Shown here one piece after another: positions 38,439 through 55,219 of a stretch of DNA of 64,000 bases (within the stretch, counting starts at the first letter, position 1; every line of letters starts with the position of its first letter). The notes under the pieces are model-generated. The model was not told the origin of the DNA. It ran no database searches and saw nothing but the letters and a program-made list of their open reading frames with translations. Source of the DNA: Silvibacterium acidisoli (GTDB taxonomy: Bacteria > Acidobacteriota > Terriglobia > Terriglobales > Acidobacteriaceae); NCBI GenBank assembly GCA_022870745.1, contig CP085323.1, positions 3,906,001 through 3,970,000 on the forward strand, given 5' to 3'. Both the position numbers and the translations under genes were made by a program.

Positions 38439-39140
38439 CTAGTAAGGAGGGTCCGGTGTTTTCTCATAAGGCTTGCCGAACATGTTGTCGTGCTCTACGA
38501 CAGCAGGGACTGAAATGTGGACATCTCCCAGATCGGTTTCCGATGCTACCTCGATGTCTCTTTGCATACCGTCGAGCGTTTGTTGCTGGACTCCCTCTAT
38601 CCAGTAATGCAACTTATACGACCCAGGCGGGATATTGCGGATCTGAAGGCTATCGTGCTCGGTGGCGATGGCATAAAGCGGCGTGGAAAGAGCGATGATG
38701 ACGGCGCTCATCTCGGGATGAATATTGCAGAAGATGTAAGACGGTCCTTCGCGCGAGAAGACAACGGACCTGCTGATGCCTGCTTCGTACAGCCCGAGAT
38801 CGAAGCGCTTTCCATCGAAAAGCGAAAACACATTGTGAAAGAAAGGGTCCTTATTCGGGAACTGCACCGTGCTGCCGACAGGAATCACCTGCAGGTGAGG
38901 GATGAACGTGCGGTTCTTCTGGAGCAGGGTGTAGTGCTCGTGGGAGGCAAAGGGAAGAACCGGTGTGCCATTTCTTGCTTCCAGCCAGATGACAGCGGGC
39001 ACTGTGCGCGGGTTTCCCGCCTGCTCTGCGACAAGATGCAGAGTCAGAGAGCCGTTCGCATGACGTTCCTGCGGAAGCGCCACACCGCACGACAGGACGC
39101 AGAGGATGAAGAGTAATCGCGGCTTCTTGCGCAGGGTCAT
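38439..39140 (-). CDS. Secreted cupredoxin-like protein (methylamine-utilisation/plastocyanin type)
   Basis: 233 residues with a signal peptide (RLLFILCVLSCGVALPQ). The cupredoxin fold is marked by VQFPNKDPFFHNVFS with the first histidine ligand, and FCNIHPEMSAVI with Cys, His and Met, a full type-1 copper set. The C-terminal ~70 residues form an extra beta-rich segment. It is the last gene of the regulator-kinase-porin-cupredoxin operon; its ATG shares one base with the upstream TGA. Role: periplasmic copper-dependent electron transfer or copper binding. The convergent gap to 38377 is short and holds nothing notable. Confidence 0.85.
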   Translation of the reverse strand: MTLRKKPRLLFILCVLSCGVALPQERHANGSLTLHLVAEQAGNPRTVPAVIWLEARNGTPVLPFASHEHYTLLQKNRTFIPHLQVIPVGSTVQFPNKDPFFHNVFSLFDGKRFDLGLYEAGISRSVVFSREGPSYIFCNIHPEMSAVIIALSTPLYAIATEHDSLQIRNIPPGSYKLHYWIEGVQQQTLDGMQRDIEVASETDLGDVHISVPAVVEHDNMFGKPYEKTPDPPY

Positions 39141-40705: not shown

Positions 40706-42563
40706 TCCGGTCGTGGCGATCCGATGGTACGGTGGGATGCTGTTGATCGGACAAGCCTCGAGCGATGGTCATCTGGAAGATGGTTTCTTCGGCGCGGCTG
40801 CTCACGAGTGTTACGTTGCCCCCATGTTCCGTGGCGACACGTGCGGCAAGTGTCAGTCCCAGGCCTGTGCCTTTCTGCTTGCCTTCGCTGACGAAAGGCT
40901 CGAAGAGGCTGGTGCGAATATTCTCGGGGATACCGATGCCGTTGTCCTGAACGAGAAGCGTGATCTCCTGGTCCGTGGCTTTGAGCGTCAAGATCACCTG
41001 TCGGGCTGTACCGGCACTGCGCTGGGCCTGGCAGGCGTTAAGAGCGAGGTTGAAGATGGCGCGTTCAATCTGCTTGCCGTCGACAACTGCCGCGGTTTCG
41101 GTGGGGTCTCCGTAACGCGTGAGGAGCGTGACGGCCTCCGCATCCGGATGCTGCCGCGTGAGAGCTGTCGCGCGTTCGAGTAGGGTCGCCATAAGCTCGG
41201 GAACTCTCCGTATGCTGCTTCCGGTGCGGCTGAAGATCAGCAGTGACTCGATCATATCCGTGGTGCCGTGGACGGCGGTGCGGATATCGGCAAAAATTTC
41301 GGCGCGCTCCTTTGCAGACATTTTGTTAAGAGCGAGGAACTCAGAGTTGGCATAGATCGCGGCGAGATAGTGACGCAAATCATGCGATACGGAGCTGGCC
41401 ATGCGTCCGATCGTGGCGAGGCGCTCTGCCTCGAGCAGCTTCAGATTGACCTGTCGAATCTCGTCACGCATGCGGACGAAAGCTGCACTCAGCTGGCGGA
41501 CCTCCTGCGTGCCGTGAAAAGACACCCGGTAGTATCCGTCGCCTGTTCCGAAGGCGCGCACGCTCCTGGATAGCGATTCGAGTGGACGGGTGACAAAGAG
41601 TGAGACCACGACCATGAAGAGCGTTCCGAGAATAAGAGCAAGCATTCCAGCCGTCAGAACGACGCGGTCGATGCGGCTGATCCAGAACTCGGCAGGCCGC
41701 AGCGACTTCAGCACGACCAGTTGCAGGGGCGAAGTAGCGGAATGAGAAAGGTCCTCGGTTGCGGCGATAAACGGCGTTCCATCGACGGTGACGCCTACTG
41801 AGCCGTCTGAGCTTGCGGAGGGCAGAGAAGGCAGAGAGATCAGATCCTGCTGTGCGTGCGGTTGCAATGTGCTGGCGACCACATGGCCCTGACTGAGAAA
41901 GGTCGCTTCCACGCCGGTAGGCTGGCTGATCTGTTTTACTGTACGTTCGATGGATATGCCGCTGACTACGTAGCCGAGCAGTGTTCCTTCTTCGTTGCTG
42001 CCGAAGTAAAGAGGCCGCACAGCACAGGCATAAAGCGAGTCGCCATCGATGAGGTAGTGCTCGTCATGTGAAGAGATGAGCGCACCGATGTTCTTTCGGA
42101 GAGCGGCGGTTGCCGGAGCGCTCTTTGTGTACGCAGCAACGACCCTGCCGTTTGAGGCCGCCAGCGCAAAAAGATCATTGCCGCTCAGTTGCCAGAAGTC
42201 GACCGCTCCATCCTGGATAGTCAGGTCATCTCCGCTTGTCATCAGCGCTTTGAGCGTGGGGAGATCGGCGAGAAGCGCGTTCTCGCGTTCGAGGGCCGCA
42301 AGCCGCTCTGCCTGGAGATTCTGGAAGGTGATGACGGAGTGGCTCAGGTCTTCGGAGAGATTCTTGGTGACCTGTGCGCGTAATCCCTGTCGAAGCAGGA
42401 ACAGGCTGAGACTGGTGACACTGGCGATGACCAGGGCCATGGCGAAGACGAGCAGGACATGGGTTCGAACGCCCTGCTTCAGGCGCCTTGCCAGGAACAT
42501 CGAATGGTCGGCAGCAGATGGAGCCGAGTGAGAATCAAGGGACAAATTTATATCCTGCTCCAT
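40677..42563 (-). CDS. Membrane sensor histidine kinase
   Basis: 628 residues. A first membrane helix (HVLLVFAMALVIASVTSLSL, about 35-55) and a second near 300 (VVLTAGMLALILGTLFMVVV) bracket a ~240-residue periplasmic sensor that looks like a Cache fold. A HAMP region follows (RPLESLSRSVRAFGTGDGYY). The phosphoacceptor is in SSVSHDLRHYLAAIY. ATP-binding motifs are FNLALNACQAQ, VQDNGIGIP and GTGLGLTLAARV. It overlaps the response regulator by 29 bases and surely forms a pair with it. The signal is unknown; copper and cytochrome genes in the putative regulon suggest a redox or envelope cue. Confidence 0.92.
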   Translation of the reverse strand: MEQDINLSLDSHSAPSAADHSMFLARRLKQGVRTHVLLVFAMALVIASVTSLSLFLLRQGLRAQVTKNLSEDLSHSVITFQNLQAERLAALERENALLADLPTLKALMTSGDDLTIQDGAVDFWQLSGNDLFALAASNGRVVAAYTKSAPATAALRKNIGALISSHDEHYLIDGDSLYACAVRPLYFGSNEEGTLLGYVVSGISIERTVKQISQPTGVEATFLSQGHVVASTLQPHAQQDLISLPSLPSASSDGSVGVTVDGTPFIAATEDLSHSATSPLQLVVLKSLRPAEFWISRIDRVVLTAGMLALILGTLFMVVVSLFVTRPLESLSRSVRAFGTGDGYYRVSFHGTQEVRQLSAAFVRMRDEIRQVNLKLLEAERLATIGRMASSVSHDLRHYLAAIYANSEFLALNKMSAKERAEIFADIRTAVHGTTDMIESLLIFSRTGSSIRRVPELMATLLERATALTRQHPDAEAVTLLTRYGDPTETAAVVDGKQIERAIFNLALNACQAQRSAGTARQVILTLKATDQEITLLVQDNGIGIPENIRTSLFEPFVSEGKQKGTGLGLTLAARVATEHGGNVTLVSSRAEETIFQMTIARGLSDQQHPTVPSDRHDRIDTHEDAHI

Positions 42564-43275
42564 AGATGGTGAGCAGATGCTTAGGATCCGCCGGATCGGG
42601 TTCCAGCTTCTGGCGCAGCTTGAGTATCTGATTATCTACGGTTCTGGTCGTCGGGTAGAAGTTATACCCCCAGACTTCGTTCAGCAAGACCTCCCGCGTC
42701 ATGACCCGTTCGGAATGTTCGGTGAAAAACTTGAGCAGCTTGAACTCATGAGCGGTAAGCACCACCGGGTTTCCTCCGCGGCGGGCGGTCATCTTCTTGA
42801 AGTCGATCTCACAGTCGGCGAAGCGGTAGGTTTCAAGCGAGGTGGTCTTTTTCTGGCGACGAATCGCGGCCTGCACGCGTGCGGTTAACTCGCGCGGGCT
42901 GAATGGCTTGGTTACATAGTCGTCGGCACCCAGCTCGAGCAGAAGAACCTTGTCGACAACCTCGGTGATGGCGCTCAGAACGATCACCGGCGTTTCACTG
43001 GACATGCTCTTGAACATCTGGCAAAGCTCGCGTCCTGAGAACTGGGGCAGGATGAGATCGAGAACGACAGCGAGTGGCCGCTCGCTGCGGAACAGATCGA
43101 GCGCGGTCTGGCCGTCGCCGGCAACCGCCACGGTGTAGCGCTCCTCGGTGAAGATCCGGCGCAGCACCTTCTGCATGCGCGGGTCATCCTCTACGATCAG
43201 GATCGTACCGAGGCTGGCAGACATGACAGCGTCTGGCGTGCTCGCTTCCAATTCCGTATCTTTGCTCTTCGCCAT
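42535..43275 (-). CDS. OmpR-family response regulator
   Basis: 246 residues: receiver domain with DD pair (VEDDPRM), phosphorylation site VLDLILPQ, and lysine in DDYVTKPFSPREL, then a winged-helix output domain (about 150-246; VVLTAHEFKLLKFFTEH, YNFYPTTRTVDNQILKLRQK). I prefer ATG 43275, preceded by GGAAGG, over 43290. It is the first gene of a four-gene operon. OmpR-family proteins bind direct repeats with an 11-bp period, which is exactly the layout of the TGACA boxes upstream of five neighbouring transcription units. I see no such boxes before its own operon (43276-43343). Confidence 0.93.
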   Translation of the reverse strand: MAKSKDTELEASTPDAVMSASLGTILIVEDDPRMQKVLRRIFTEERYTVAVAGDGQTALDLFRSERPLAVVLDLILPQFSGRELCQMFKSMSSETPVIVLSAITEVVDKVLLLELGADDYVTKPFSPRELTARVQAAIRRQKKTTSLETYRFADCEIDFKKMTARRGGNPVVLTAHEFKLLKFFTEHSERVMTREVLLNEVWGYNFYPTTRTVDNQILKLRQKLEPDPADPKHLLTIYGAGYKFVP

Positions 43276-43343
43276 GTTTGAACCTTCCATACATCTCTAT
43301 TTTGGTTGAAAGGGGTATGTATCAGGCAAGCGAAATCCTGAAA

Positions 43344-44588
43344 TTACAATGGGATGACAATTGACTTGTCTTTTTTCATTGCGCGTTGTCCCTGGGGCAT
43401 CAGCATGCCCATGAAGATAATCATCCAGAGCGGCAGAGACAAGTCAAATGGCTCGGTGTCGGCCAGGCCGCGTACCAATATAAAGATCAGCAGACTGTAA
43501 AAGAATGTCTTCGCCGGACCGTTAGCCAGCCTGCGAATCTGCAGAAAGAAGCTGCTGTAAATTCCTGCGAACAGGACCACTCCGCAGATGCCGTATGCGT
43601 AGAACTGCTGCAGAAGCTCGTTATGCGCATGCCGGGCCTCGAACTGATCCGGACCGAATGGGGGAATCACCTTCCATACAGAATGAAATCCGTGACCGAA
43701 CCATGGCTTGTCGACCGCTTCCGCGAGGAGATAGGCCCAGATGCCGAGACGCCCGGTGAGCGTTTCAGACTGGTTTCCGGCGTTGAGATAGACATCGTAG
43801 TAGCTGCCCAGCAACCCGGCGAAGGCTATTACGGCTGCGAGGGCAGCGGCTGTTAGAAATGCTTTCTGGCGGCGGGTCATAGAGCTATCCCTCAGCAGGA
43901 GGAATGCCTGGCTGAGGATGAAGGCCGCGATCGTGGTTTTACTCAGGCTGCGCAGAAGGGTCAACGCCAGCAGCAGAATGGGTATACCCCAGCGGCCGGC
44001 ACGATTTCGCGAGAGGTACTGGGCGAGGTATACGGCGAATGCGCAAAGGAAACCGATCTGGTTGGGGCCTAGAAGCTCTTCGTCGCCCAGGCGAAGATCG
44101 GACTGCGCGGGCATGATCCACGCGATGATGGCGATGGCGCATGCTCCCCACACGTAGCCCTTCATAAGCGAGCAGACTGTAAGATTTGTTGATCGAGCGC
44201 GCAGCAGCAGGATCGCGAGCAGCGCGTCGGCAGCCATGGCGCACCAGTATGCAATGGCCGCGGGCACAGATGCGGCCACTGTCCACAGCAGGCTGCATCC
44301 TGAGAAAGCAAGAAACAACATGGCCCAGCGTACGCTTGCCGGACGAAGGATAGATCGGAGTGGATGCCGACTAACACCGGGCGACGCAAGTGCGACTACC
44401 GGGAGAAGAAGAATATTCAGGACGAGGCTTGCCTCGACCCCTGTTTGAGGATCTGTGCCAAGTACCCGTACCGACAGCAGCATGATGAATGAGCGAAAGG
44501 CAAAGTAAAACCCCACGGCCCATGGGAGGCCGAGGGTCGATTGCCCGAATTCCTGCTCTCTGCTAACAGTGTAGGTTGCGGTCGTCAT
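43344..44588 (-). CDS. O-antigen ligase/polymerase-like (Wzy_C) membrane protein
   Basis: 414 residues with about eleven hydrophobic segments and a large periplasmic loop bearing WFGHGFHSVWKVIPPFGPDQFEARHAHNE split across two motifs (GHGFHS and HAHNELLQ). This is typical of the O-antigen ligase/Wzy family that polymerises or transfers lipid-linked glycans. ATG 44588 was chosen, eight bases after the cytochrome gene stop; an extension to 44744 would overlap that gene. It is the last gene of a three-gene operon with a CuA protein and a cytochrome c. It probably polymerises the repeat unit made by the genes at 49-57 kb. Confidence 0.88.
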   Translation of the reverse strand: MTTATYTVSREQEFGQSTLGLPWAVGFYFAFRSFIMLLSVRVLGTDPQTGVEASLVLNILLLPVVALASPGVSRHPLRSILRPASVRWAMLFLAFSGCSLLWTVAASVPAAIAYWCAMAADALLAILLLRARSTNLTVCSLMKGYVWGACAIAIIAWIMPAQSDLRLGDEELLGPNQIGFLCAFAVYLAQYLSRNRAGRWGIPILLLALTLLRSLSKTTIAAFILSQAFLLLRDSSMTRRQKAFLTAAALAAVIAFAGLLGSYYDVYLNAGNQSETLTGRLGIWAYLLAEAVDKPWFGHGFHSVWKVIPPFGPDQFEARHAHNELLQQFYAYGICGVVLFAGIYSSFFLQIRRLANGPAKTFFYSLLIFILVRGLADTEPFDLSLPLWMIIFMGMLMPQGQRAMKKDKSIVIPL

Positions 44589-44596
44589 GGACGATC

Positions 44597-45061
44597 TCAG
44601 TGCGTATACATTTCGGGCATGCCCTGGCTCCCCTGCGCCGGCAGGTGCCGCAGGAATGCAATGATGGACCAGAGTTCGTCGTCGCTGAGAGTTCCCTTGG
44701 AGCCAGGCATGCCGGAGGGACGGATGCCATTGTCCAGAATCCATTTCAGCTGCCCGTCGGTGTACTGTTGCACGTCGGGTGAAGCGAGGGAAGGGATGGG
44801 CGGTGAGATGTGATCCGCGAAAGGAACGCCTGTGTTCTGGCCGTCATTTCCATGACAGGCGACGCAGTAATGAGAGAAGGCCTCTTTGCCGTCTGTCCGT
44901 GTCTGTGCGGTGTCTGGTAAAGGGTTCTTCTCGTCTTTGTTTCCGATGAAGATGTGATGTTTGGCGGAAGTGATTACAGCCGTTTCAAGTCCGCCGGGTC
45001 GATCGGCTTTGCAGCCGGTCAACCCAACAAGGACGAGTGCTGAAATGAGCAGGCGACGCAT
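44597..45061 (-). CDS. Lipoprotein cytochrome c, single haem
   Basis: 154 residues with a lipoprotein signal (LVGLTGC) and one haem site CVACHGND (Cys-x-x-Cys-His). The distal methionine is probably in GIRPSGMPGSKG. This is a class I cytochrome c held to a membrane. It starts two bases after the CuA cupredoxin stop, so the two are probably partners: CuA domains pass electrons to or from cytochrome c. Its place in front of a polysaccharide polymerase gene is unusual. Confidence 0.9.
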   Translation of the reverse strand: MRRLLISALVLVGLTGCKADRPGGLETAVITSAKHHIFIGNKDEKNPLPDTAQTRTDGKEAFSHYCVACHGNDGQNTGVPFADHISPPIPSLASPDVQQYTDGQLKWILDNGIRPSGMPGSKGTLSDDELWSIIAFLRHLPAQGSQGMPEMYTH

Positions 45062-45063
45062 CG

Positions 45064-45429
45064 CTAGTCCACCACGTGAAGTTTGAGTGCCATGGATCCA
45101 TGACCGGATCCGCAGAAGACAGAGCAGTGGCCTGTGAAGTCGCCCGTCTTATCCGGTGTGAAGTGCGCTTCGACTGTTTTGCCTGCGCCGACCTTGATGT
45201 TGACATTGAAGTCGCGAAAGCTGAGCCCGTGCGGCACGTCTTCGCTCTTAAGAACCAGCACAACCGGCTGCCCCTTTTTCAGAGTGACATCGCCAGGGGT
45301 GAAAGAAAACTTCTTTGCGGTGATTTCAACCCGCTTCGGGGCATCCTGCGAATGCAGGAGCCTCGTTTGCGAGGCAACGCAGAACAGAATCGCGATGAGC
45401 ATTGCCGCACGCGTCCACTTCTTCAGCAT
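45064..45429 (-). CDS. Stand-alone CuA-type cupredoxin
   Basis: 121 residues with a signal peptide (AMLIAILFCVASQTRLLHSQ). The copper motif is CSVFCGSGHGSM, that is Cys-x3-Cys-x3-His-x2-Met, together with His in DVPHGLSF, the full binuclear CuA ligand set of cytochrome oxidase subunit II. There is no membrane hairpin and no oxidase subunit I nearby. The start has AGAGGAG six bases upstream. A TGACA-repeat promoter (45450-45513) lies directly ahead. It probably shuttles electrons with the cytochrome c encoded next. Confidence 0.88.
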   Translation of the reverse strand: MLKKWTRAAMLIAILFCVASQTRLLHSQDAPKRVEITAKKFSFTPGDVTLKKGQPVVLVLKSEDVPHGLSFRDFNVNIKVGAGKTVEAHFTPDKTGDFTGHCSVFCGSGHGSMALKLHVVD

Positions 45430-45449
45430 AGAACTCTCCTCTGGAAGTG

Positions 45450-45513
45450 ATCCTAGGCAGGTTGCATCGAGGGGTTGTCATGCTTCGGTTAGACAATTGT
45501 CACGGTTTTGTCG
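45450..45513 (-). promoter_or_regulatory. TGACA-repeat promoter for the CuA/cytochrome/ligase operon
   Basis: Read on the minus strand, boxes CGACA (45509-45513), TGACA (45498-45502), TAACC (45487-45491) and TGACA (45476-45480) follow each other every 11 bp. Exactly 20 bases after the last box comes TAGGAT (45455-45450), a -10-like hexamer. A short leader with AGAGGAG leads to the ATG at 45429. Confidence 0.7.
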
Positions 45514-45544
45514 GAAGGACGATGGACTCAAAATAGCTGCTTCG

Positions 45545-45597
45545 AAACAATCGAGTGACAAGCCGATAACAATCCGGCACGGAAGCCTCAGTATCCT
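45545..45597 (+). promoter_or_regulatory. TGACA-repeat promoter for the HprK-like gene
   Basis: Boxes AAACA (45545-45549), TGACA (45556-45560) and TAACA (45567-45571) repeat every 11 bp. After exactly 20 bases comes TATCCT (45592-45597) as the -10 box. The layout equals that of four other promoters in this region. It is divergent from the CuA promoter in the same 190-base gap. Confidence 0.6.
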
Positions 45598-45621
45598 CTT
45601 GAGCAGGAGTGATACGGATTG

Positions 45622-46623
45622 ATGCTGAGCCTTGAGCAGATAGAGGCAGCATGCGCGGCCGGGAAGATGCCCGTAGTTTGCCGGCATGAACTGGAAGTGC
45701 CGGAGCTGACTTTTAGCAGGATCTACTACCCATTTGGTTTTCCGATGGAGGTTCGCAGTAACTCTAACGAGGTGCTCGAACATTTCACCGCGATGTGGGG
45801 AAAATTCAGGCCGCATTTCGAGGCTGATATGCTGCGGACCGAAGTGGTTCTCGTTGACGATGGGTCTACTGACTGTCCGCCGGAGCCGAGCCATCAGATC
45901 TTCGGTTCCTGGTTGATCTGCGTGGCCGACTCCCGCAATTCAGTTGTCGCCGATCTGCAGAATGGGATTACACGCATCACCGTCTCGCGTGGCGCACTGC
46001 GGCACCCTCTATACGTGCAGTACTTCCTGTTGGGGCTGGCTTCCTCATGCATCTCCACTTGTCTTGCGACCCCCATTCATGCCGGATGCGTCGCGTTCAA
46101 CGGAAGAGGATTCCTGCTGTGCGGAGATTCGGGAGCGGGGAAGTCAACGCTCTCCTATGCCTGTGCGCGGGCGGGATGGAACTACGTCAGCGATGATGCC
46201 AGTTATATGCTCAGCCACGGGGATCGGCGCATGGTTAGTGGAAATCCGCACCAGGTGCGGTTTCGGCCATCAGCTGCGGAGCTGTTCCCTGAACTTCTTG
46301 GACTGGCTGTTACGCCACGCGCGGCCGGAAAGCCTTCGATCGAGCTGCCTACCGCCGGTATGCCTTATATCAAGACGGCAGACACAGCCTGCATCGATTT
46401 CATGGTATTCCTGAAGCGCAGGGATAACGGCTTCGCCGAGATCGAACCTTACAGCGCTGATGCGGCGCGGTTGTTCATGAGGCAGGTATTGTTCGGTCCT
46501 GAGCCTACGCTGACAGCCCAGCATGCGGCGATCGAACGCATGCTGGGCGCCCGGCTGGTTGCTCTCCACTACAGTGACCTAAGGCTCGCAATTGCACGCC
46601 TTGAGGAACTCAGCATGCAATAG
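45622..46623 (+). CDS. HPr-kinase-like (HprK C-terminal fold) protein of a polysaccharide locus
   Basis: 333 residues. The centre has a Walker A motif CGDSGAGKST near residue 173 and the HprK-like sequence CARAGWNYVSDDAS. There is no HPr or PTS gene nearby. Such HprK-related proteins often accompany nucleotidyltransferase-fold proteins in exopolysaccharide/exosortase loci, and a nucleotidyltransferase is encoded at 48161. Substrate is unknown. The ATG at 45622 is 12 bases after AGGAG; a TTG at 45619 is an alternative. Its stop lies in a 30-bp palindrome. Confidence 0.8.
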   Translation: MLSLEQIEAACAAGKMPVVCRHELEVPELTFSRIYYPFGFPMEVRSNSNEVLEHFTAMWGKFRPHFEADMLRTEVVLVDDGSTDCPPEPSHQIFGSWLICVADSRNSVVADLQNGITRITVSRGALRHPLYVQYFLLGLASSCISTCLATPIHAGCVAFNGRGFLLCGDSGAGKSTLSYACARAGWNYVSDDASYMLSHGDRRMVSGNPHQVRFRPSAAELFPELLGLAVTPRAAGKPSIELPTAGMPYIKTADTACIDFMVFLKRRDNGFAEIEPYSADAARLFMRQVLFGPEPTLTAQHAAIERMLGARLVALHYSDLRLAIARLEELSMQ

Positions 46624-46644
46624 CGGCACGTGCCGCTATTGCAT
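46615..46644. terminator. 30-bp perfect palindrome spanning two convergent stop codons
   Basis: Arms ATGCAATAGCGGCAC (46615-46629) and GTGCCGCTATTGCAT (46630-46644) are exact complements with no spacer. It includes the stop of the HprK-like gene (TAG 46621-46623) and reaches the first base of the cytochrome stop (46644-46646). RNA from either strand would fold into a strong hairpin, so it probably acts as a bidirectional terminator or transcript-end stabiliser. No long T-run follows. Confidence 0.7.
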
Positions 46645-46955
46645 CAGGGATTGAAGAATCGCAGTAACTCCTGCTCGTCATGTGCGCTCAGGGATGCACG
46701 CATCCTCATGTGTCGCACGATCGTTCCGGAGATTCTTGGCGAGAAGCCCTCAGGTGCATTGTGGCAGCGTGAGCAGTTTGCCTCGAAGATGCGCTCGCCG
46801 TCGTCTTGATCCTGATGAGACCGCTGGTCTTTCTGCTGCTTATCCGATTTCGTTTCCGTCTTGCCGTTTGAAGCAGCCGGGGCCTCAGAGCGAGCCACAG
46901 GGGCGAGGGACACTGCGGCAAGAGCGAGCATAACTGCAAGTGAGGTCATTTTCAT
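46644..46955 (-). CDS. Small periplasmic cytochrome c
   Basis: 103 residues with a signal peptide ending near APVARSEA. A charged linker rich in Lys, Asp and Gln follows, then one haem motif CSRCHNAPEG (Cys-x-x-Cys-His). A likely axial methionine is in RHMRMRASL. The haem domain is short (about 50 residues). It begins two bases after the stop of the outer-membrane barrel gene and shares its transcript. Electron partners are unknown. Confidence 0.85.
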   Translation of the reverse strand: MKMTSLAVMLALAAVSLAPVARSEAPAASNGKTETKSDKQQKDQRSHQDQDDGERIFEANCSRCHNAPEGFSPRISGTIVRHMRMRASLSAHDEQELLRFFNP

Positions 46956-46957
46956 AC

Positions 46958-47998
46958 CTAGCGTCCTTTCCAGGTGGGGAAGAGGAAGCGGTACACGATG
47001 CCCGTTTCCCAGATGTTGGTATTGCCCGAAGATGAAAACTGTCGCGAGTAGCTGGTCAGGATGCGCGTGTTATGCGGCAGGTTATAGTCGATGCCAAAGT
47101 CCGCACGCTGTGTGTCGACAAGCGGCACGCCATCGCTGACCACGGTGTCGCGGCGGAAAGTCTGCTGCAAGCGAAATACCGGTTCGAATCTGCCGACCCA
47201 GCTGTTGAGGCCGCCAAATGCCTGGGTGCGGTAATCCGCTTCGACCCAGTAACCCTGCGCGTGATGGCCGCGCGCGTATTCGGAGCGAAGTCGAAAAGCT
47301 GTACCGGCAGGTTCCCACCATACGTGTGCGCCGTAAAAGTTTTCGTGTGTGCCCTGCAACTGGCGATCGTATGAGAGGCCGACTTCCAGCCGCTGATCGG
47401 GAAGGTAGAGGCTGGTACGGCCGCCAAAGGCGCGCGTGGCGGTGAACTGCTCGTTGCCGCTCCTGGCAGAGAACCAGCCTGCGTAGTCGATTGAGTAGCT
47501 GTGATGTGAGACGGCCGAACCACGCGCCATGCCGCCGAGACCGGAACCTGAAGAGAGTATGCCGAGGCTGGCAATAAGCGGACCATCCTGGAAATTGTTG
47601 ATCCATACCGGCGAGAGGCGGTCGTTGTAGGTGTTGAAGGGTAGAAGGAAGCTGCCGCCAACGATTGTCAGGTGCGGGTTCACGATGAAGTCGCCCTGCA
47701 AGTACGTAAAACCGGCGAAGTGGCTGTGATCGTAACCGTTACTGGTTGGATTAAAGCTTTCGAGAATTGCAGCCCTCGACTCGATCATGAAGCGCTGACC
47801 GATGGGCATGGCAATCAATGGTTCGATCAGCGGCATATAGCTGGTGTTGCCGCCGTTGGTGTTGCTGAAAAATGCGACGCCGCCCGAAATCAGCGGCGTG
47901 TCCTGGGCGCGAGCCATATGGACTGCACAGAACATGGCTGTGATGAGAGAGGTTGACCAGGCAAACCTCAAGATCCGGGTGAGCAAGGGACGCGACAT
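46958..47998 (-). CDS. Outer-membrane beta-barrel protein
   Basis: 346 residues. The signal peptide runs from MSRPLLTRILRF through VHMARAQD. Alternating strands such as RFMIESRAAILESF, HFAGFTYLQGDFIV and LEVGLSYDRQL point to an outer-membrane barrel. No specific family could be named; it resembles acidobacterial hypothetical barrels next to cytochromes. The predicted -10 box ends only six bases before the ATG, so the mRNA may lack a leader. It is followed by a small cytochrome c gene. A link between barrel and cytochrome (porin-cytochrome conduit) is conceivable but a single-haem cytochrome makes that weak. Confidence 0.7.
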   Translation of the reverse strand: MSRPLLTRILRFAWSTSLITAMFCAVHMARAQDTPLISGGVAFFSNTNGGNTSYMPLIEPLIAMPIGQRFMIESRAAILESFNPTSNGYDHSHFAGFTYLQGDFIVNPHLTIVGGSFLLPFNTYNDRLSPVWINNFQDGPLIASLGILSSGSGLGGMARGSAVSHHSYSIDYAGWFSARSGNEQFTATRAFGGRTSLYLPDQRLEVGLSYDRQLQGTHENFYGAHVWWEPAGTAFRLRSEYARGHHAQGYWVEADYRTQAFGGLNSWVGRFEPVFRLQQTFRRDTVVSDGVPLVDTQRADFGIDYNLPHNTRILTSYSRQFSSSGNTNIWETGIVYRFLFPTWKGR

Positions 47999-48004
47999 GC
48001 CACA

Positions 48005-48068
48005 ACACTAGCCGGAAGCATTCTGCGTCGTGTCTCAGGATCGTCTGCTGTTTGTCAATCTATTGTCG
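48005..48068 (-). promoter_or_regulatory. TGACA-repeat promoter for the barrel/cytochrome operon
   Basis: On the minus strand the boxes CGACA (48068-48064), TGACA (48057-48053), AGACG (48046-48042) and AGACA (48035-48031) repeat every 11 bp. After exactly 20 bases comes TAGTGT (48010-48005). The gene start at 47998 follows within seven bases, which implies a leaderless transcript. Confidence 0.6.
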
Positions 48069-48087
48069 CAGCTGCGGAAACAGGTGG

Positions 48088-48151
48088 AAACAATGCGGTG
48101 ACAATCACCTGACGGCCCCATGACAACAGACGTGTGCCGGGCTTTTAGAGT
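48088..48151 (+). promoter_or_regulatory. TGACA-repeat promoter for the nucleotidyltransferase gene
   Basis: Boxes AAACA (48088-48092), TGACA (48099-48103), TGACG (48110-48114) and TGACA (48121-48125) repeat every 11 bp, then a 20-base gap and TAGAGT (48146-48151). The ATG at 48161 is nine bases after the -10 box and has no ribosome site, again suggesting a leaderless or nearly leaderless mRNA. Confidence 0.7.
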
Positions 48152-48160
48152 CGGTTCGAC

Positions 48161-49477
48161 ATGGAAGCAACAGCGATAAAGCGGCATGAGGGAAGGTGGG
48201 GAGCGCCAGCAGCGCGCGAGGCGGCGGTAAAGCTGTTCTGCGATCCGCTTCCGGAATGCTGCCTGCGCCTGGAAATGCTTAACGCTTCGGAATGGAAGAA
48301 GCTGCTGCACTGGCTGGATGTAAGCGGCCTGGCGCTCTACTTCCTGGATCGTATCCATGAGCTGGAGATACCGTCGGTGCTTCCCGCAGTGGTGCTGGAC
48401 CGGTTGCAGAGAAACCTGCACGACAACACAAGGCGGATGCAGGATCTACTGGAAGAATTCGCAGCAATCCATTTCGAGTTTCAACGCGCGGATTTGTCCT
48501 ATGCGACGGTGAAGGGTTTCGCGCTCTGGCCGGATTCCGTTGCAAGGCCAGAGCTGCGATCGCAGCTCGACCTGGACTTTATCGTCTCTCCGCACAGCGC
48601 AATGCGCGCGCGCGAAATTCTTGAAGCAAGGGGCTACCACCTGCACGCCGCAAGCGGAAGGAGCTGGGAGTTCAAAGCGAATCAGATTGCAGGCATGTCC
48701 TTGCGCGATATCTACACCCCTTCGCCGTACCGCTGCGTGGAGATCCATATCGAAGATCAGGGACCTGGCACAAGATTGGAGCGCAGGGAACGGCGGCAGA
48801 TTCTCGGGGTGGAAGCGTTTGCGCTGACTGCAGGGGATCAGTTTGTCGATCAGGGCATGCACCTCTACAAGCACATCACCCGCGACTTCTTTCGTATGTC
48901 CCACCTGCTTGAATTCCGGCGGCAGGTGGAAAAGCTGAAGGAAGACGATGCCTTCTGGAGGCAGATCGAATCGGATGCGTTGAAGATGCCGGATGCTTCC
49001 GTCGGCCTGGGTGTTGCGATTCTGCTTACATCCCGGGTGCAGGGGAGCTTCGCTCCGGAGTCTCTTACTCGTTGGACGGTGGAACGCGTTCCGCTGGGCG
49101 CACGGCAATGGCTGGAGCGTTACGGAAGCCGGATGGCATGCTCCGATTTTCCCGGCACAAAGCTCGGCATGATGCTGCAGAAGGAACTCTCCATCGCGAC
49201 TGGAAACCAACGACCTGTAAGCCGACCACTGATTCCGCTACGTCTTCCTCCCCCCATTGTTAAGGCTCCTACGCGGGAAAGTGCGGTGCGCCGATTCCGC
49301 CGAAGGTACTTTGAACTGCGCTTCATCCTCTTCCGGCTGCGCTTTCATTGCGTCGAGGGGCTCCGCTATCGGATTGAATCAGCCCGCTGGGCCCGTTACA
49401 GGGATCGGACAAACCGAATCGCAACGTCGCGTGTTCTCTACTCTGACTCGCGCATGAAAAGTGACTCCAGCAATTAG
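48161..49477 (+). CDS. Nucleotidyltransferase-fold family protein of polysaccharide loci
   Basis: 438 residues of the uncharacterised nucleotidyltransferase family found in exopolysaccharide clusters. The active-site pattern is RSQLDLDFIVSPHSA, with the two metal-binding aspartates near residue 140, and ATVKGFALWPD ahead of it. A later helical segment includes DQFVDQGMHLYKHITRDFFRM. The C-terminus is basic and arginine-rich. It probably works with the HprK-like protein at 45622, a pairing known from exosortase-type loci; the substrate is unknown. It has its own TGACA-repeat promoter. Confidence 0.82.
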   Translation: MEATAIKRHEGRWGAPAAREAAVKLFCDPLPECCLRLEMLNASEWKKLLHWLDVSGLALYFLDRIHELEIPSVLPAVVLDRLQRNLHDNTRRMQDLLEEFAAIHFEFQRADLSYATVKGFALWPDSVARPELRSQLDLDFIVSPHSAMRAREILEARGYHLHAASGRSWEFKANQIAGMSLRDIYTPSPYRCVEIHIEDQGPGTRLERRERRQILGVEAFALTAGDQFVDQGMHLYKHITRDFFRMSHLLEFRRQVEKLKEDDAFWRQIESDALKMPDASVGLGVAILLTSRVQGSFAPESLTRWTVERVPLGARQWLERYGSRMACSDFPGTKLGMMLQKELSIATGNQRPVSRPLIPLRLPPPIVKAPTRESAVRRFRRRYFELRFILFRLRFHCVEGLRYRIESARWARYRDRTNRIATSRVLYSDSRMKSDSSN

Positions 49478-49488
49478 CCGTACGCGTT

Positions 49489-49552
49489 CAACAAAGGAAT
49501 GACAATTCTCTGACTGCAATATGACACGTGAAGCGGTGGAGACTTTTACGGT
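49489..49552 (+). promoter_or_regulatory. TGACA-repeat promoter for the polysaccharide export operon
   Basis: Boxes CAACA (49489-49493), TGACA (49500-49504), TGACT (49511-49515) and TGACA (49522-49526) repeat every 11 bp, followed by 20 bases and TACGGT (49547-49552). It probably drives the long operon starting at 49565, possibly through to the polyketide genes near 60 kb. Confidence 0.7.
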
Positions 49553-49564
49553 CGACTAGGAAAG

Positions 49565-52540
49565 ATGCGAGGCATGCGAACCCATTTCATCGGCGGAAAA
49601 ATAGCTCATGCAGTTGTAGCTCTAGCGTTGGCTGGGCTGTTCTTTGCTGTGGAGACAGCGGGCGCTCAACAGGAGCCGCCGCCATTACAGGGAGCGGCCA
49701 GCCAGACCTCTCCACTGGACAACTCCACTTCTTCTGCAACGTCCACGGCAGAGAGCAACAACTTCGGTGAACAACGTACGGCGGATTCTCCCTTGATATC
49801 GGCATCGCTTCCTGCCGACCGCATCATTAGCATCCTCGAGGAAAATCCCGACCTGGTGACGGAGATCAAGTCACAGGTGGCGGATCGTTTACAGACCCAG
49901 GGAACGCCTGTCGACGCGAACGACATCTCGGATGAAATGCTCTATCAGCAGATAGAGAGCAATGCGTCGCTGCGCAGCAGCATTACGACCTTTCTTCGCG
50001 CACGCGGATATGTAAGCGAAGACGATCTGCAGAATGCAAGCCTCTCCCAGGGAGGGTCCGGTTCCGATACAGACAGGCTCGGAAATGCATATGGGTTTCC
50101 GGGCGACGACGGATCGGATATGTCCCGGCTGGCAACGTCTTCTTCGTACGGTATGGTTCAACGCGGACGCGAAGATGACTTTGCACGCGCCATGGATACA
50201 GGGCGCTTCGCGGATCGGGGCGCACGAGCCGGGTTGCCTGCCAGGCCTCGCGATAAGGAGCCGGTGAACAATGCAACCGATGCGCCGAAGGTGCTGCGGC
50301 AGCCGGCGCCCTACAACCTCCGCTCCATGCGCGATCTCTACACGCAGATCCCCGATCAGACGCAACAGCTAAAACGTTTCGGCGCCGAAGTGTTTACGGA
50401 TCGAAGTGTGCGTACGAGCCTGGCGGGTGGATCGACTCCGAATGCTCCGCTCGATGTTCCGCTCGGTCCCGATTACGTGCTGGCTCCGGGGGACACGGTG
50501 GCTGTGAACGTATGGGGCGGCTTGACGCAGACCATCTCCCGGGTGATCAATGGAGACGGCCATATCCTGCTGCCAGAGGCGGGCTCGATCTCTGTCGCGG
50601 GGCTTACGCTTGAACGTGCGCAGTACGCGATAGAGAACGCACTGAAGCAACAGTTTCGAAATGCGCAGGTCGCGGTTACGATTTCACGGCTTCATTCTGT
50701 CAGGGTGTTTGTCGTTGGAGATGTGCAGAGGCCGGGGGGCTATGACCTGAATGCCCTGGCAACGCCGGTAAGCGCGCTGCACGCGGCTGGCGGGCCTACG
50801 GCAGCCGGCTCGTTGCGCACCGTGCGGCATTATCGCGGCGAGCAGCTGGTCGAAGAGGTCGACCTTTACGACTTTCTGCTTCATGGTGTGCGTTACGGCA
50901 GCAAGCGGTTCGAGAATGGAGATTCGCTGCTCGTGCCTCCCGTGGGACCGCAGGTGGCGATCTCCGGTGCGGTGAGGCGGCCTGCAATCTATGAATTGAA
51001 GGCCAATACGGCGGCATCCCTTGCCTCGGTTGTCGAAGACGCGGGCGGATTCACTGCAGCCGCTTCTTTCTCACACATTGTGATCGAACGAATCGACACA
51101 AACCAGAGGCGCGAGACGCTTACCGTAGCTGCATCGTCTCAGTCCGGAGTGGCTGCTGATTCCGCCGCGATGGCTGCCTTCGATGTGAAGGACGGCGACC
51201 GGGTGAAGGTCGAACCCGTTCTGCCATACAGCCAGCGCGCAGTGTACCTGGAGGGGCATGTGGCTCGTCCGGGACGTCTGGCGTACTTCGATGGGATGCG
51301 GCTGGGCGATGTAATTCGCAGCTATCGCGACCTGCTTCCGGAGCCTGCGGATCGCGGGGAGATTGTGCGCCTGGTTGCGCCCGATCTGCATGCCGAGCTG
51401 ATCGACTTCAGCGTCCCGGAGGTCCTGGCCGGCAATCACGGTATCGAACTGCAGCCCTTCGACACGGTACGGATTCTGGGCCGCTATCAACTGGATGCGC
51501 CCAAGGTGGAGATACGAGGAGAGGTGTTGCGCCCAGGCAAGTACCCACTGTCAAGCGGAATGACAGCGGCACAGCTTGTACGAATGGCCGGAGGATTTAA
51601 GCGAGATGCACTGGAAGATACGGCTGATCTCACGAGTTATGGCGTGATTGATGGCAAGCGCATCTCGGAGCAGCTCTCCAGCATACGCATCGGAGATGCG
51701 GTTTCAGGGACAGCTTCCGCAGATGTTGAGTTGAAAGCAGGAGACGTGCTCGCGATCCACCAGATCACGGGATGGAACGATATCGGTGAGTCTGTAACAG
51801 TCGAAGGGCAGGTTCGCTACCCCGGCAGCTTCGGCTTTCAGGATGGAGAACGGCTCAGCTCGGTGCTGCGTCGCGCCGGAGGTCTTCTGCCTGCCGCCTA
51901 TCCCGCAGGTGCAGTGCTTGTGCGCGAGCAGGTGCGGGAACTTGAGCAGAAGAGCCGCGAGGAGCTGATCCGCCAGATTGAGACGAACTCGGCGGCGGCG
52001 CGTCTCTCACCCAATCTTGGCGCTGGTGACACCGGTCCCACACTGCAGTTGATCAAGGCACAGCAAGATCAGGTGCTTGCCGATCTGAAGAGTCATCCGC
52101 CAAGCGGAAGGATGGTGATTCACATCACTGCCGACCTGAACTCGTGGGCCAACACGCCGGCAGATATCGAGTTGCGACGCGGCGATGTCATCACCATACC
52201 TAAAGTTCCTGGCTTTGTTCTTGTCACCGGGCAGGTTTATAACTCCACCGCTCTCACCTTTACTCCTGGAAAGACTGCGGGTTGGTATCTGCGGCGTGCC
52301 GGCGGCACAAACTCTGCGGCGAACAGGAAAGATATCTTCGTCATTCGGGCGAATGGAACAGTTGTAGGACGGGGCTCGGGTGGAATCTTCGACGATGTGC
52401 TTTCGACAAAGCTCGATCCGGGCGATGTCGTGGTGGTGCCGCAAAAGGTCATCGGCTCATCGTTGTTCTGGCGCAACCTGCTGGCCACTGCGCAGCTTGC
52501 TTCGTCTATCGCCATCACGGCAGCGGTGGCTTCGATTTGA
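49565..52540 (+). CDS. Polysaccharide export protein with multiple SLBB domains (Wza-like)
   Basis: 991 residues, much longer than Wza (~380). After a signal peptide (ending near ETAGAQQE) there is a low-complexity region of about 230 residues. The Poly_export domain follows (about 295-380; DYVLAPGDTVAVNVWG, LLPEAGSISVAGLTLERAQ). Several SLBB units come next (VFVVGDVQRPGGY; VAISGAVRRPAIYEL; VYLEGHVARPGRLAYFDG; VEIRGEVLRPGKYPLSSG; VTVEGQVRYPGSFGFQDG; FVLVTGQVYNSTALTF). The C-terminus has a hydrophobic segment. It forms the outer-membrane export channel. A second ATG at 49574 is an alternative start. Confidence 0.92.
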   Translation: MRGMRTHFIGGKIAHAVVALALAGLFFAVETAGAQQEPPPLQGAASQTSPLDNSTSSATSTAESNNFGEQRTADSPLISASLPADRIISILEENPDLVTEIKSQVADRLQTQGTPVDANDISDEMLYQQIESNASLRSSITTFLRARGYVSEDDLQNASLSQGGSGSDTDRLGNAYGFPGDDGSDMSRLATSSSYGMVQRGREDDFARAMDTGRFADRGARAGLPARPRDKEPVNNATDAPKVLRQPAPYNLRSMRDLYTQIPDQTQQLKRFGAEVFTDRSVRTSLAGGSTPNAPLDVPLGPDYVLAPGDTVAVNVWGGLTQTISRVINGDGHILLPEAGSISVAGLTLERAQYAIENALKQQFRNAQVAVTISRLHSVRVFVVGDVQRPGGYDLNALATPVSALHAAGGPTAAGSLRTVRHYRGEQLVEEVDLYDFLLHGVRYGSKRFENGDSLLVPPVGPQVAISGAVRRPAIYELKANTAASLASVVEDAGGFTAAASFSHIVIERIDTNQRRETLTVAASSQSGVAADSAAMAAFDVKDGDRVKVEPVLPYSQRAVYLEGHVARPGRLAYFDGMRLGDVIRSYRDLLPEPADRGEIVRLVAPDLHAELIDFSVPEVLAGNHGIELQPFDTVRILGRYQLDAPKVEIRGEVLRPGKYPLSSGMTAAQLVRMAGGFKRDALEDTADLTSYGVIDGKRISEQLSSIRIGDAVSGTASADVELKAGDVLAIHQITGWNDIGESVTVEGQVRYPGSFGFQDGERLSSVLRRAGGLLPAAYPAGAVLVREQVRELEQKSREELIRQIETNSAAARLSPNLGAGDTGPTLQLIKAQQDQVLADLKSHPPSGRMVIHITADLNSWANTPADIELRRGDVITIPKVPGFVLVTGQVYNSTALTFTPGKTAGWYLRRAGGTNSAANRKDIFVIRANGTVVGRGSGGIFDDVLSTKLDPGDVVVVPQKVIGSSLFWRNLLATAQLASSIAITAAVASI

Positions 52541-52595: not shown

Positions 52596-53882
52596 ATGCT
52601 GCCTCCCACGATGACGGAATTCGAGACCGAAGCAGGGTCTGCACCCGTTGCCTCTACAGACTGGGCCGTACGCGGCATGCTGCTGTGGAGCCGGCGCAAG
52701 ACACTTGCACGCGTGGCAGCGATCGGGTTGATTCTGGGCCTCCTCATAGCTTTTTCGATACCCAAGCAATACAAGTCGACAGCGCGCATCATGCCGCCAG
52801 ATCAACAGTCGGGTTCGGGCGCCATGATGCTGGCAGCGCTGGCGTCGCGATCGACGGGCCTCGGCGGCCTGGGCACTCTGGCAAGCATGCTTGGCGGGCG
52901 TACGACGACCGCGTTGTTTATCAGCCTGCTGCGCAGCGGCACGGTGAGTGGGGAACTGATTGATCGCTTTCAGCTGCTGCATGTGTATCACAAGCGATAC
53001 CGCGTCGATGCAGCCAAGCGGCTGGCCAGCAGGACAAGCATTACTGACGACAAGAAGAGCGGCGTCATTACGATCGAGGTCGTGGACACTGACCCCGTAC
53101 GTGCTCGCGACCTGACGCTGGCATACCTGGATGGGCTAAACAAGCTGGTCACGGAAACCAGCACATCATCTGCACGCCGTGAGCGCATTTTTATTGAGCA
53201 GCGCCTGCATTCGGTGGAGCGAGATCTCGAACAAGCCCAGGTTTCCCTCAGCGAGTTCTCAAGCAAGACGAACGCTATCGACATTAAAGAACAGACCCGT
53301 GCCATGGTGGATGCCGGCGCGAAGGTCGAAGGTGAATTGCTTGTCGAGCAGTCTGGTCTGCAATCCCTTCGCCAGATTTATGGCGACGGAAATATCCGTG
53401 TCCGCGAAACCGAGGCGCGTATTGCTTCTCTAAAGGCCGAGCTCAATAAGATGGCGGGATCATCTGCCGCGGTTCCATCAGGCACTTCGGATGAAGAGGC
53501 TGACAAGGGTGAGCTCTATCCTCCACTCCGGCAGATTCCACGGCTGGCTGTTCCTTATGCGGATCTCTACAGGAAGGTACGCGTGCAGGAAACTGTCTTT
53601 GAATTGCTCACACAGCAGTACGAGATGGCCAGGATAGATGAAGCGCGCGATATCCCGGTAGTGAGCGTGATCGATGCTCCTGGCATCGCGGAGAAAAAAT
53701 CATTTCCGCCACGGCTGATCGTTGCTCTCGCACTTACCTTTCTAACACTGCTGGTCTCGTCGGCACTGATCATCCTCGAGGACTCGTGGTCGAGGGTCGA
53801 TCCTCTCGATCCGCGAAAAAGACTTGCGGCTGAAGTATCGGCAGCCACACGCCGGCGGACGGCAAGGTGGAAGCGGCGATGA
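52596..53882 (+). CDS. Wzz/GumC-type chain-length determinant
   Basis: 428 residues with membrane helices near the N-terminus (ARVAAIGLILGLLIAFSI, about 45-62) and near the C-terminus (LIVALALTFLTLLVSSALII, about 370-390). Between them lies a periplasmic coiled-coil region with SVERDLEQAQVSLSEFSS. The motif QYKSTARIMPP after helix 1 is typical of Wzz proteins. There is no cytoplasmic tyrosine-kinase domain. GGGAGG is eight bases upstream of the ATG. It controls polymer length together with the SLBB exporter and the polymerase. The gene ends with an ATGA overlap to the flippase. Confidence 0.92.
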   Translation: MLPPTMTEFETEAGSAPVASTDWAVRGMLLWSRRKTLARVAAIGLILGLLIAFSIPKQYKSTARIMPPDQQSGSGAMMLAALASRSTGLGGLGTLASMLGGRTTTALFISLLRSGTVSGELIDRFQLLHVYHKRYRVDAAKRLASRTSITDDKKSGVITIEVVDTDPVRARDLTLAYLDGLNKLVTETSTSSARRERIFIEQRLHSVERDLEQAQVSLSEFSSKTNAIDIKEQTRAMVDAGAKVEGELLVEQSGLQSLRQIYGDGNIRVRETEARIASLKAELNKMAGSSAAVPSGTSDEEADKGELYPPLRQIPRLAVPYADLYRKVRVQETVFELLTQQYEMARIDEARDIPVVSVIDAPGIAEKKSFPPRLIVALALTFLTLLVSSALIILEDSWSRVDPLDPRKRLAAEVSAATRRRTARWKRR

Positions 53883-55219
53883 GAAAGCACCTGAGTAATG
53901 CTGCTTACGGAGCCCTGGATTACGCCGCTCATCCACTTGTCATGCTGCTGGTGGCGCCCATCATCCTGAATAGGCTGGGTGTGGCCGAGTATGGTATCTG
54001 GACGATTGCCACGGCGGTCATCAGCGTGGGAGGAATCGTTGCGTCGGGATTTTCGGACGCGAATATCCAACGCATTGCCAGCCTGCGCAGCGCGAATGAA
54101 ACGCAAACGATGAAGCTCACCACCGGGAGCATTTTTGCGATCAATCTGACAGCTGGAATATTTCTTGCGGCATGCGCCTGGATTGGGGCGCCCTATGCTG
54201 TTCCGCGCATCGTGGTTGCGCAACCCGCGCTTGCCCATGAATGCCTCGCGGCCTTGCGTATTGCCGCGGTCATTGTTCTTGTCCGCTCCATCGAAAGCGT
54301 AGCTGTGAGCACGCAACGTGGATTTGAGGCCTATCGGGAGTCTGTTCGAATCAGTACCGCTGTGCGAATCCTTACCCTCGTTGCAGCAGCGGTGCTGGCG
54401 TTGTGCGGGCAACGATGTGTCAGCATTCTCGTCGCGACTGGTGTCTTCCTGGTTGCTGGAACGGCACTGCAGTTTCTACAGCTGCCTCGATTTTTAAGAG
54501 AGGCATCGGTCCTTCCGATATTTCATCGCGAGGAAGGGCAGCGGTTGCTTCGCATGGGTATCTTCAGCTGGATCCAGGCGCTGGGAAGTGTTGTGCTGGG
54601 GCAGCTGGATCGGCTGCTGCTTGGAGTGTCGCTGGGTGCGGTCGCCGTTGCTCCCTATGCGCTGTGCGTGCAGTTTGCCCAGCCTCTCTCAGGTTTTACG
54701 GCTTCCACACTGCAGTTTCTGTTTCCGTATCTCTCAGGGCGTTTTGGGCAGGCCGGTACCGTCGACATTCGCCGGATAGTGTTTAAGGCATTCCTCTGCA
54801 ATTTCATGATCGTCGCGGTCGAGGCTGTCGCGATCCTCGCTGTTGGCCCGCATCTGGTGCGCGCCTGGGCTGGCCCCGTTGTCGCGCGGGCAGCCGCTCC
54901 GATATTTCCGGTCATCATTGTGGGCGCGGCGATCATGGGCCTCAGCGTGACGGCGAACTATGCGCTGCTTGCATTCGGAATGTTTCGTGCCGTAACAGCA
55001 ATCAGCCTCTCCAGCCGAGTAGCGACCCTCCTGCTGATGGTGTATCTGCTTCATCATGGCGGACTGAAGGAGATGGCCATCTCGCGCTTGAGCTATGGAG
55101 TGCTGACACTGCTGCTCTATGTGCCACTCATGCAGAAGCTTGAAGTTGCGAATCCGGTCTCGATGATTCGTTCCAGGTTGTTTGCAAGAAGCGATTTTGC
55201 CGAGGAGCGGAGACCATGA
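53879..55219 (+). CDS. Polysaccharide flippase (Wzx-type, MOP superfamily)
   Basis: 446 residues with about twelve hydrophobic segments, beginning HLSNAAYGALDYAAHPLVML and including ILNRLGVAEYGIWTIATAV, a typical Wzx opening. ATG 53879 overlaps the stop of the chain-length gene (ATGA). It moves lipid-linked repeat units across the inner membrane. It also overlaps the next glycosyltransferase start by four bases, so it is part of a tightly coupled run of genes. Confidence 0.9.
   Translation: MRKHLSNAAYGALDYAAHPLVMLLVAPIILNRLGVAEYGIWTIATAVISVGGIVASGFSDANIQRIASLRSANETQTMKLTTGSIFAINLTAGIFLAACAWIGAPYAVPRIVVAQPALAHECLAALRIAAVIVLVRSIESVAVSTQRGFEAYRESVRISTAVRILTLVAAAVLALCGQRCVSILVATGVFLVAGTALQFLQLPRFLREASVLPIFHREEGQRLLRMGIFSWIQALGSVVLGQLDRLLLGVSLGAVAVAPYALCVQFAQPLSGFTASTLQFLFPYLSGRFGQAGTVDIRRIVFKAFLCNFMIVAVEAVAILAVGPHLVRAWAGPVVARAAAPIFPVIIVGAAIMGLSVTANYALLAFGMFRAVTAISLSSRVATLLLMVYLLHHGGLKEMAISRLSYGVLTLLLYVPLMQKLEVANPVSMIRSRLFARSDFAEERRP

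Follow-up and report, generated by a model that had tools for sequence, protein, structure and literature searches.

In a stretch of 64,000 nucleotides (nt) from the 5.36-Mb genome of Silvibacterium acidisoli (GCA_022870745.1, CP085323.1:3,906,001-3,970,000 of the forward strand, or C1:3906001-3970000; hereafter the window), five promoters share a single architecture in which TGACA-like boxes recur every 11 base pairs (bp) upstream of a TANNNT hexamer. We consider it highly likely that these sites are the activator-dependent promoters of one two-component system encoded within the same locus, made up of the sensor kinase at 40677 and the OmpR-family response regulator at 42535, and the latter is very probably the protein that binds the boxes. 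The pattern, its conservation, its position in front of genes and its co-occurrence with the regulator are all directly visible in the genomes compared. A sequence-only reading of the window had taken the repeats for binding sites of an OmpR-family regulator, perhaps the product of the 42535 gene, and had proposed a regulon on this basis, comprising cytochrome, CuA and polysaccharide genes. Both proposals were supported by the genome comparisons, in which presence of the regulator tracks the motif and the pattern is found before these genes throughout the family.

Direct reading of the sequence bore out all five promoters at the positions and on the strands originally proposed (Table 1), with their boxes in 11-bp phase; four sites have four boxes and 45545(+) has three that are recognizable. 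TGACA is a consensus from which the actual boxes vary (TAACC, AGACG, AGACA, AAACA and others), and the last box stands exactly 20 nt from the -10 hexamer in every case. When three boxes were scored out of 15, with TANNNT required at 20 nt, the five sites reached 14, 14, 13, 12 and 12; the highest score elsewhere in the window was 10, and 30 dinucleotide shuffles peaked at 11. A free search of the region from 38 to 56 kb (any 5-mer, period 9-13, gap 15-25) returned five sites of one kind, compared with one or two per shuffle in 12 shuffles. With a position weight matrix (PWM) whose training set included all five sites, 45545(+) scored 23.2 bits and the other four 41.5-49.6 bits. No ordinary sigma-70 promoter (TTGACA-like -35 element, 16-18 nt spacer) was detected in 45000-49700 by a consensus scan that found 1.4 in shuffles, and an Rfam search of 45000-50000 returned no RNA element at the gathering threshold.

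The pattern is not peculiar to this genome. A strict version (TGACA-N6-TGAC-N7-TGACA-N20-TANNNT, at most one mismatch) was searched for in 200 genomes of the order, with the reversed pattern as the control. It was present in 94 genomes belonging to 26 of the 57 genera, at 283 sites in total, and the reversed pattern was found in none of the 200; the enrichment beyond chance on which the sequence-only reading had made its proposal depend is therefore clear. None of the 14 genomes of the sister family within this set has the strict pattern. Across the phylum, three exact TGACA boxes occurred in 20 of 44 genomes of the same family and in 12 of 352 others, with the reversed control matching one genome per group. 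Two genomes outside the family (G368, locus L155, and G379) have two exact three-box arrays each; the one of them that was read has no TANNNT at 20-21 nt, and such arrays possibly serve another regulator with a similar word.

Both the period and the distance to the -10 hexamer are sharply defined. In regions picked by pattern matches, a period of 11 gave 107 places scoring at least 13/15, and periods of 8-10 and 12-14 gave 0-2. When the boxes alone were used, 21 places in the same family, several of them near-duplicates from sister species, had TANNNT at 20 nt in four cases and at 21 nt in eight, with none at gaps of 13-19 or 22-40; ten places outside the family showed no gap peak. Scoring of 40 loci fetched by the regulator, for which only the box columns of the PWM were used (itself trained on sites chosen via the 20-nt pattern), yielded 66 sites, of which 31 have TANNNT at 20 nt and 12 at 21 nt; no other gap accounted for more than two. 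By simple gene calls, 59 of these 66 sites are intergenic. The 20-nt gap originally described thus holds for all five window sites but not as the only value, because relatives use either 20 or 21 nt. With the full PWM at a threshold of at least 18 bits, 57 matches were found in 26 of the 40 loci and none in the reversed sequence.

These results bear on the idea that the repeats come from the local DNA architecture or from chance, through duplicated promoter DNA or base composition, with no dedicated regulator involved. Neighbouring promoters could indeed be copies of each other, and the window contains two divergent promoter pairs. However, the five sites have different sequences in their 20-nt gaps, an alignment of 64 sites shows little information between the boxes or within the gap, and the pattern recurs in many genera before unrelated genes. 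Chance or composition was rejected by the shuffles, the reversed sequences and the reversed-pattern controls. As far as sequence can decide, the recurrence in the order and the co-occurrence with the regulator described below refute a feature of the locus alone, and we regard this explanation as having almost no probability.

The candidate binder is supported by its distribution. Homologs of the 42535 regulator are present in 93 of the 94 motif-positive genomes and 19 of the 106 motif-negative ones (Fisher p = 2e-36), where a regulator-positive genome is one with a best expectation value (E) of at most 1e-70, a threshold set after inspection of the best values per genome and falling within a gap among them, between 4.2e-74 and 5.3e-66. 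The link also holds inside genera (within-genus permutation p <= 5e-5). Proximity was assessed for 149 of the 283 motif places, drawn from the motif matches listed in the 49 genomes whose regulator place was among the listed matches as well: 19, 31, 66 and 74 of them lie within 5, 10, 20 and 35 kb of the regulator, compared with 0.3, 0.6, 1.2 and 2.1 expected. In a 100-genome subset, the counts for gene and motif together, gene only, motif only and neither were 43/10/0/47 for the regulator. Two target genes predicted the motif less well, with counts of 36/12/7/45 for the cupredoxin (E <= 1e-15) and 35/7/8/50 for the NTP_transf_5 protein (E <= 1e-3). Seven of the 43 motif-positive genomes lack the cupredoxin, eight lack NTP_transf_5 and none lacks the regulator, so the motif follows the regulator even without these targets. 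Among the 37 of 40 loci in which gene calling retrieved the regulator, 36 have the kinase directly following it, and a nearly invariant recognition helix, TRTVDN(Q/H)xxKLRQKLE, is found in all 38 aligned sequences, including the one from the window.

An alternative is that the boxes are OmpR-type sites read by another regulator, for example a PhoB-like protein, and that 42535 is merely one more of its targets. The 11-bp TGACA repeats do resemble an inverted Pho box, described for Escherichia coli as CTGTCAT in two 11-nt direct repeat units (PMC4415409, in its accessible part), and genome G000 has 67 candidate regulators at first look; PhoB was the sole competitor compared. A PhoB-like protein, however, is encoded in 93 of the 100 subset genomes (43/50/0/7), including 50 of the 57 without the motif. 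The 42535 regulator, by contrast, occurs in each of the 43 genomes with the motif and in only ten of the other 57. PhoB is unlikely to be the binder, since a near-universal gene cannot explain the distribution of the motif. Moreover, the 42535 gene sits among the sites, and no phosphate-uptake or phosphatase family appears among the 25 of 44 Pfam families listed for 144 target proteins described below. Reading by a different regulator consequently strikes us as improbable.

Several observations weigh against the assignment of the boxes to the 42535 regulator. Of the 112 genomes with the regulator, 19 do not show the strict pattern. Among the eight of these that were looked at further, three (G028, G037 and G047) have a site with a 21-nt gap, and G072 carries two strong sites close to the regulator gene; the best sites in G195 and G010 are weak (21.5 and 19.8 bits), and G076 and G102 have no site of at least 14 bits in the stretch read. 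Likewise, the fetched stretch contains no site of at least 18 bits in 14 of the 40 regulator loci. Conversely, the regulator-negative genome G133 matches the full pattern, and three exact TGACA boxes are found in three other regulator-negative genomes: in G036 they are followed by TANNNT at 21 nt, in G026 and G032 they are not. Joint gain or loss of regulator and sites as one locus could also account for part of the link, although the motif-positive genomes that lack target genes speak against it as the full explanation. As a separate observation, G131 encodes two regulators of this family, at C2:873708 and C2:1553817, which share 80% and 58% identity with 42535; both have motif sites next to them and are possibly paralogs sharing one site type.

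With the 42535 regulator as the preferred binder, the promoters may work as follows. The sensor kinase 40677 would phosphorylate the regulator, its presumed cognate partner, and the phosphorylated protein would occupy three or four TGACA-like half-sites arranged head-to-tail and one helical turn apart. If TANNNT is taken as the -10 element, the half-site centres fall at about -35, -46, -57 and -68. The last half-site thereby stands where sigma-70 would seek the absent -35 element, and the bound regulator would recruit RNA polymerase. Binding and its dependence on phosphorylation, the signal, orientation and stoichiometry, and activation in preference to repression are inferred. Geometry alone cannot separate the last two, and OmpR-family proteins both activate and repress, so that boxes at -35 to -68 might instead block or hold polymerase until a signal arrives. 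A repressor, however, would have no need of the 20-21 nt register that the boxes hold to the -10 hexamer, which is expected for contact with polymerase, and the consensus scan found no -35/-10 promoter here. Repression therefore seems to us quite unlikely.

The window locus suggests that the system controls itself. The run behind promoter A is tightly packed and includes the cupredoxin, cytochrome c, Wzy_C, regulator and kinase genes followed by two more, with the promoter A site about 2.2 kb upstream of the regulator gene. Provided that this run is one transcript, as its spacing suggests, the regulator would itself be under promoter A, which would place regulator and kinase in their own regulon and create positive feedback. 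The other promoters would turn on an exopolysaccharide assembly and export locus, and the regulon would also take in the CuA-cupredoxin, cytochrome c and outer-membrane-like proteins. The presence of the regulator gene inside the run read from the 45450 promoter goes beyond the sequence-only reading, as do the further sites outside the window and the 21-nt gap.

Among the 20 loci with the closest regulators, 11 have a sense-strand site ahead of the regulator gene at a distance of less than 3 kb (L178, L179, L180, L183, L185, L186, L187, L189, L190, L196 and L197). The window order of cupredoxin, cytochrome c, Wzy_C, regulator and kinase is also seen in L178, L183 and L197 and partly in others. 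Self-control as a general feature is weakened by two counts: distant regulators (56-63% identical) have such a site in one of 17 loci, L200, where it is weak, and under a strict rule demanding a motif promoter right before the regulator operon, 9 of 37 loci qualified.

To describe the regulon more broadly, we collected 160 genes past PWM sites in loci that had been chosen by motif or regulator and are thus not a random sample. Of these targets, 92 resemble window proteins: 23 are of the 46958 type, which is the most frequent of the window-protein types, 22 are cupredoxins, 13 NTP_transf_5 proteins, 10 HPr-kinase-like proteins, 10 export proteins and 9 cytochromes, with a few others. A Pfam scan of 144 targets (leaving out 12 that were truncated, duplicate or from L059, L196 and L197, and 4 that were long) added radical SAM proteins with B12-binding domains (12, including the one beside the C1:3977877/3977969 pair of sites described below), PhyH (9), ABC_tran (7), GT87 (5) and others. 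Among the 23 sites in front of 46958-type genes, 15 have the chosen ATG 12 or 13 nt past the first -10 base; the ATG was chosen mechanically, and these promoters, being homologous, are not independent cases. The window example reads TAGTGT-TGTGGC-ATG (47998-48010, minus strand). Since this is where transcription should start, the spacing supports the -10 assignment and predicts leaderless mRNAs, which appear to be a conserved property of the 46958 target family.

Additional sites were sought in the rest of the S. acidisoli genome. The four-box pattern with at most three mismatches matched five places and the control none. Four of the five are window sites, and the fifth, C1:275493-275555, precedes a gene for a Ferritin_2 protein. 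Ferritin_2 matches were found in three of the 144 scanned target proteins, the C1:275493 target included. A looser two-box search gave 40 places against 22 in the control, so its matches are mostly chance; among them is a pair of divergent sites, C1:3977877/3977969, which lies some 8 kb beyond the window (region C1:3976301-3980084) between a B12-binding radical SAM gene, whose start codon is uncertain, and a GT87 gene. No site was found in the 16 kb to the left of the window, and no set of three exact TGACA boxes was found in this genome. By the searches made, the regulon of this genome looks small and centred on the window locus.

The genes and promoters of the locus are listed in Table 1.

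Table 1. Promoters and genes of the window locus (window coordinates)
Feature	Position	Strand	Sequence or domain evidence	Remarks
Promoter A	45450..45513	-	CGACA-TGACA-TAACC-TGACA, 20 nt, TAGGAT	Reads cupredoxin-cytochrome-Wzy-regulator-kinase run
Promoter B	45545..45597	+	AAACA-TGACA-TAACA, 20 nt, TATCCT	Weakest; reads HPr-kinase-like gene
Promoter C	48005..48068	-	CGACA-TGACA-AGACG-AGACA, 20 nt, TAGTGT	ATG 12 nt past first -10 base; predicted leaderless
Promoter D	48088..48151	+	AAACA-TGACA-TGACG-TGACA, 20 nt, TAGAGT	Reads NTP_transf_5 gene
Promoter E	49489..49552	+	CAACA-TGACA-TGACT-TGACA, 20 nt, TACGGT	Reads polysaccharide export genes
Cupredoxin-like (by reading)	38439..39140	-	No Pfam match	Final gene of promoter A run
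Porin-like (by reading)	39140..40705	-	DUF4763 only, under cut-off	Distal in promoter A run
Sensor histidine kinase	40677..42563	-	HAMP, HATPase_c; HisKA and dCache_3 just under cut-offs	Overlaps regulator gene end
OmpR-family response regulator	42535..43290	-	Response_reg 96.6 bits (cut-off 30.2), Trans_reg_C 88.3 (cut-off 26.2)	Proposed binder
O-antigen ligase/polymerase	43344..44744	-	Wzy_C	True start probably 3' of listed ATG, past cytochrome gene
Cytochrome c	44597..45061	-	Cytochrome_CBB3	
Cupredoxin	45064..45429	-	COX2/CuA-type domain	First gene past promoter A
HPr-kinase-like	45622..46623	+	Hpr_kinase_C under cut-off; HprK_rel_A far under	Promoter B target
Small cytochrome c-like protein	46644..46955	-	Cytochrome_CBB3 just under cut-off	Next after 46958
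Secreted/outer-membrane-like (by reading)	46958..47998	-	Signal-peptide-like start; no Pfam or NCBIfam match	Promoter C target
Nucleotidyltransferase	48161..49477	+	NTP_transf_5	Promoter D target
Polysaccharide export protein, Wza type	49565..52540	+	Poly_export + SLBB	Promoter E target
Wzz-type chain-length, flippase-like and glycosyltransferase-like (by reading) proteins	52596..56385	+	MatE just under cut-off (flippase-like)	3' of 49565

By anatomy this is an OmpR-family direct-repeat regulon, and thus a new regulon of a known kind: the regulator combines a receiver with a winged-helix Trans_reg_C domain, its gene adjoins that of a kinase, and the half-sites are in tandem about one helical turn apart. 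Among known systems, PhoB offers a close parallel in site design. The PhoB site stands in for the -35 element; the E. coli Pho word has the opposite orientation to the boxes here, and the distance from box to -10 at phoA is shorter than the 20-21 nt found here. The box in this system, TGACA on the sense strand, is the complement of the TGTCA core in CTGTCAT, and the targets here are polysaccharide and redox genes. An OmpR-family regulator with direct repeats of 11-nt units in head-to-tail order is a feature that this system, on the reading preferred here, shares with E. coli PhoB and Streptomyces PhoP, as far as the accessible part of PMC4415409 describes them. Scored against the PhoB model TIGR02154, the 42535 regulator reaches 195.8 bits, under the cut-off of 296.2, and a better PhoB-like gene exists at C1:4107523 (238.8 bits, also under the cut-off); judged by these scores, the 42535 regulator is not PhoB.

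The solved structures closest in sequence to 42535 are those of the actinobacterial regulators MtrA and RegX3 (2gwr, E 1.5e-48; 2oqr, E 1.8e-44). The likeness is at the family level only (MtrA model 194.3, cut-off 300), and phylum and targets differ. ChvG/ChvI, CenK/CenR and ColRS are proteobacterial systems whose OmpR-family regulators have other binding motifs. Compared by description rather than by sequence, they share with the system here a link to envelope or exopolysaccharide genes, as the accessible parts of the relevant papers indicate for these two-component systems (PMC9731502, PMC3687685, PMC9275681, PMC2689224). Window proteins also show weak matches to models from XrtA/PEP-CTERM loci, namely HprK_rel_A (35.2 bits, cut-off 200), pepcterm_export (107.7, cut-off 180) and PrsK (71.3, cut-off 300). 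The kinase and regulator do not form a PrsK/PrsR pair of the XrtA/PEP-CTERM kind by these measures: the PrsK score is under the cut-off, and the regulator is OmpR-type, whereas PrsR belongs to the NtrC-type activators of sigma-54.

Named relatives of the regulator (60-86% identical) come from Acidobacteriaceae or Acidobacteriales, including Edaphobacter, Granulicella, Silvibacterium, Acidobacterium sp. S8 and metagenome bins. A literature search, which left subscription papers mostly outside its reach, found no description of the motif or the system, nor of such a regulon in Acidobacteria, and the accessible part of PMC7074687 contains nothing on the 42535 regulator. Going by the genomes compared, the motif very probably marks an apparently undescribed gene set that joins polysaccharide export with copper and cytochrome proteins. 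We also advance, as a tentative possibility, a broader proposal: a two-component switch that activates itself and operates throughout Acidobacteriaceae could govern the assembly of extracellular polysaccharide jointly with a periplasmic copper/haem electron path. In this promoter class the regulator array, inverted relative to the Pho box, would stand in fully for the -35 element, and the mRNA of one conserved outer-membrane target would be leaderless. Acidobacteria are common in soils, and the motif is defined sharply enough for targets to be proposed in genomes of the family; it names its probable regulator and provides promoters that can be tested. It also ties an uncharacterised set, namely the CuA-cupredoxin, the cytochromes, the HPr-kinase-like, NTP_transf_5 and radical SAM proteins and the 46958-type protein, to polysaccharide export, which gives a functional clue for each.

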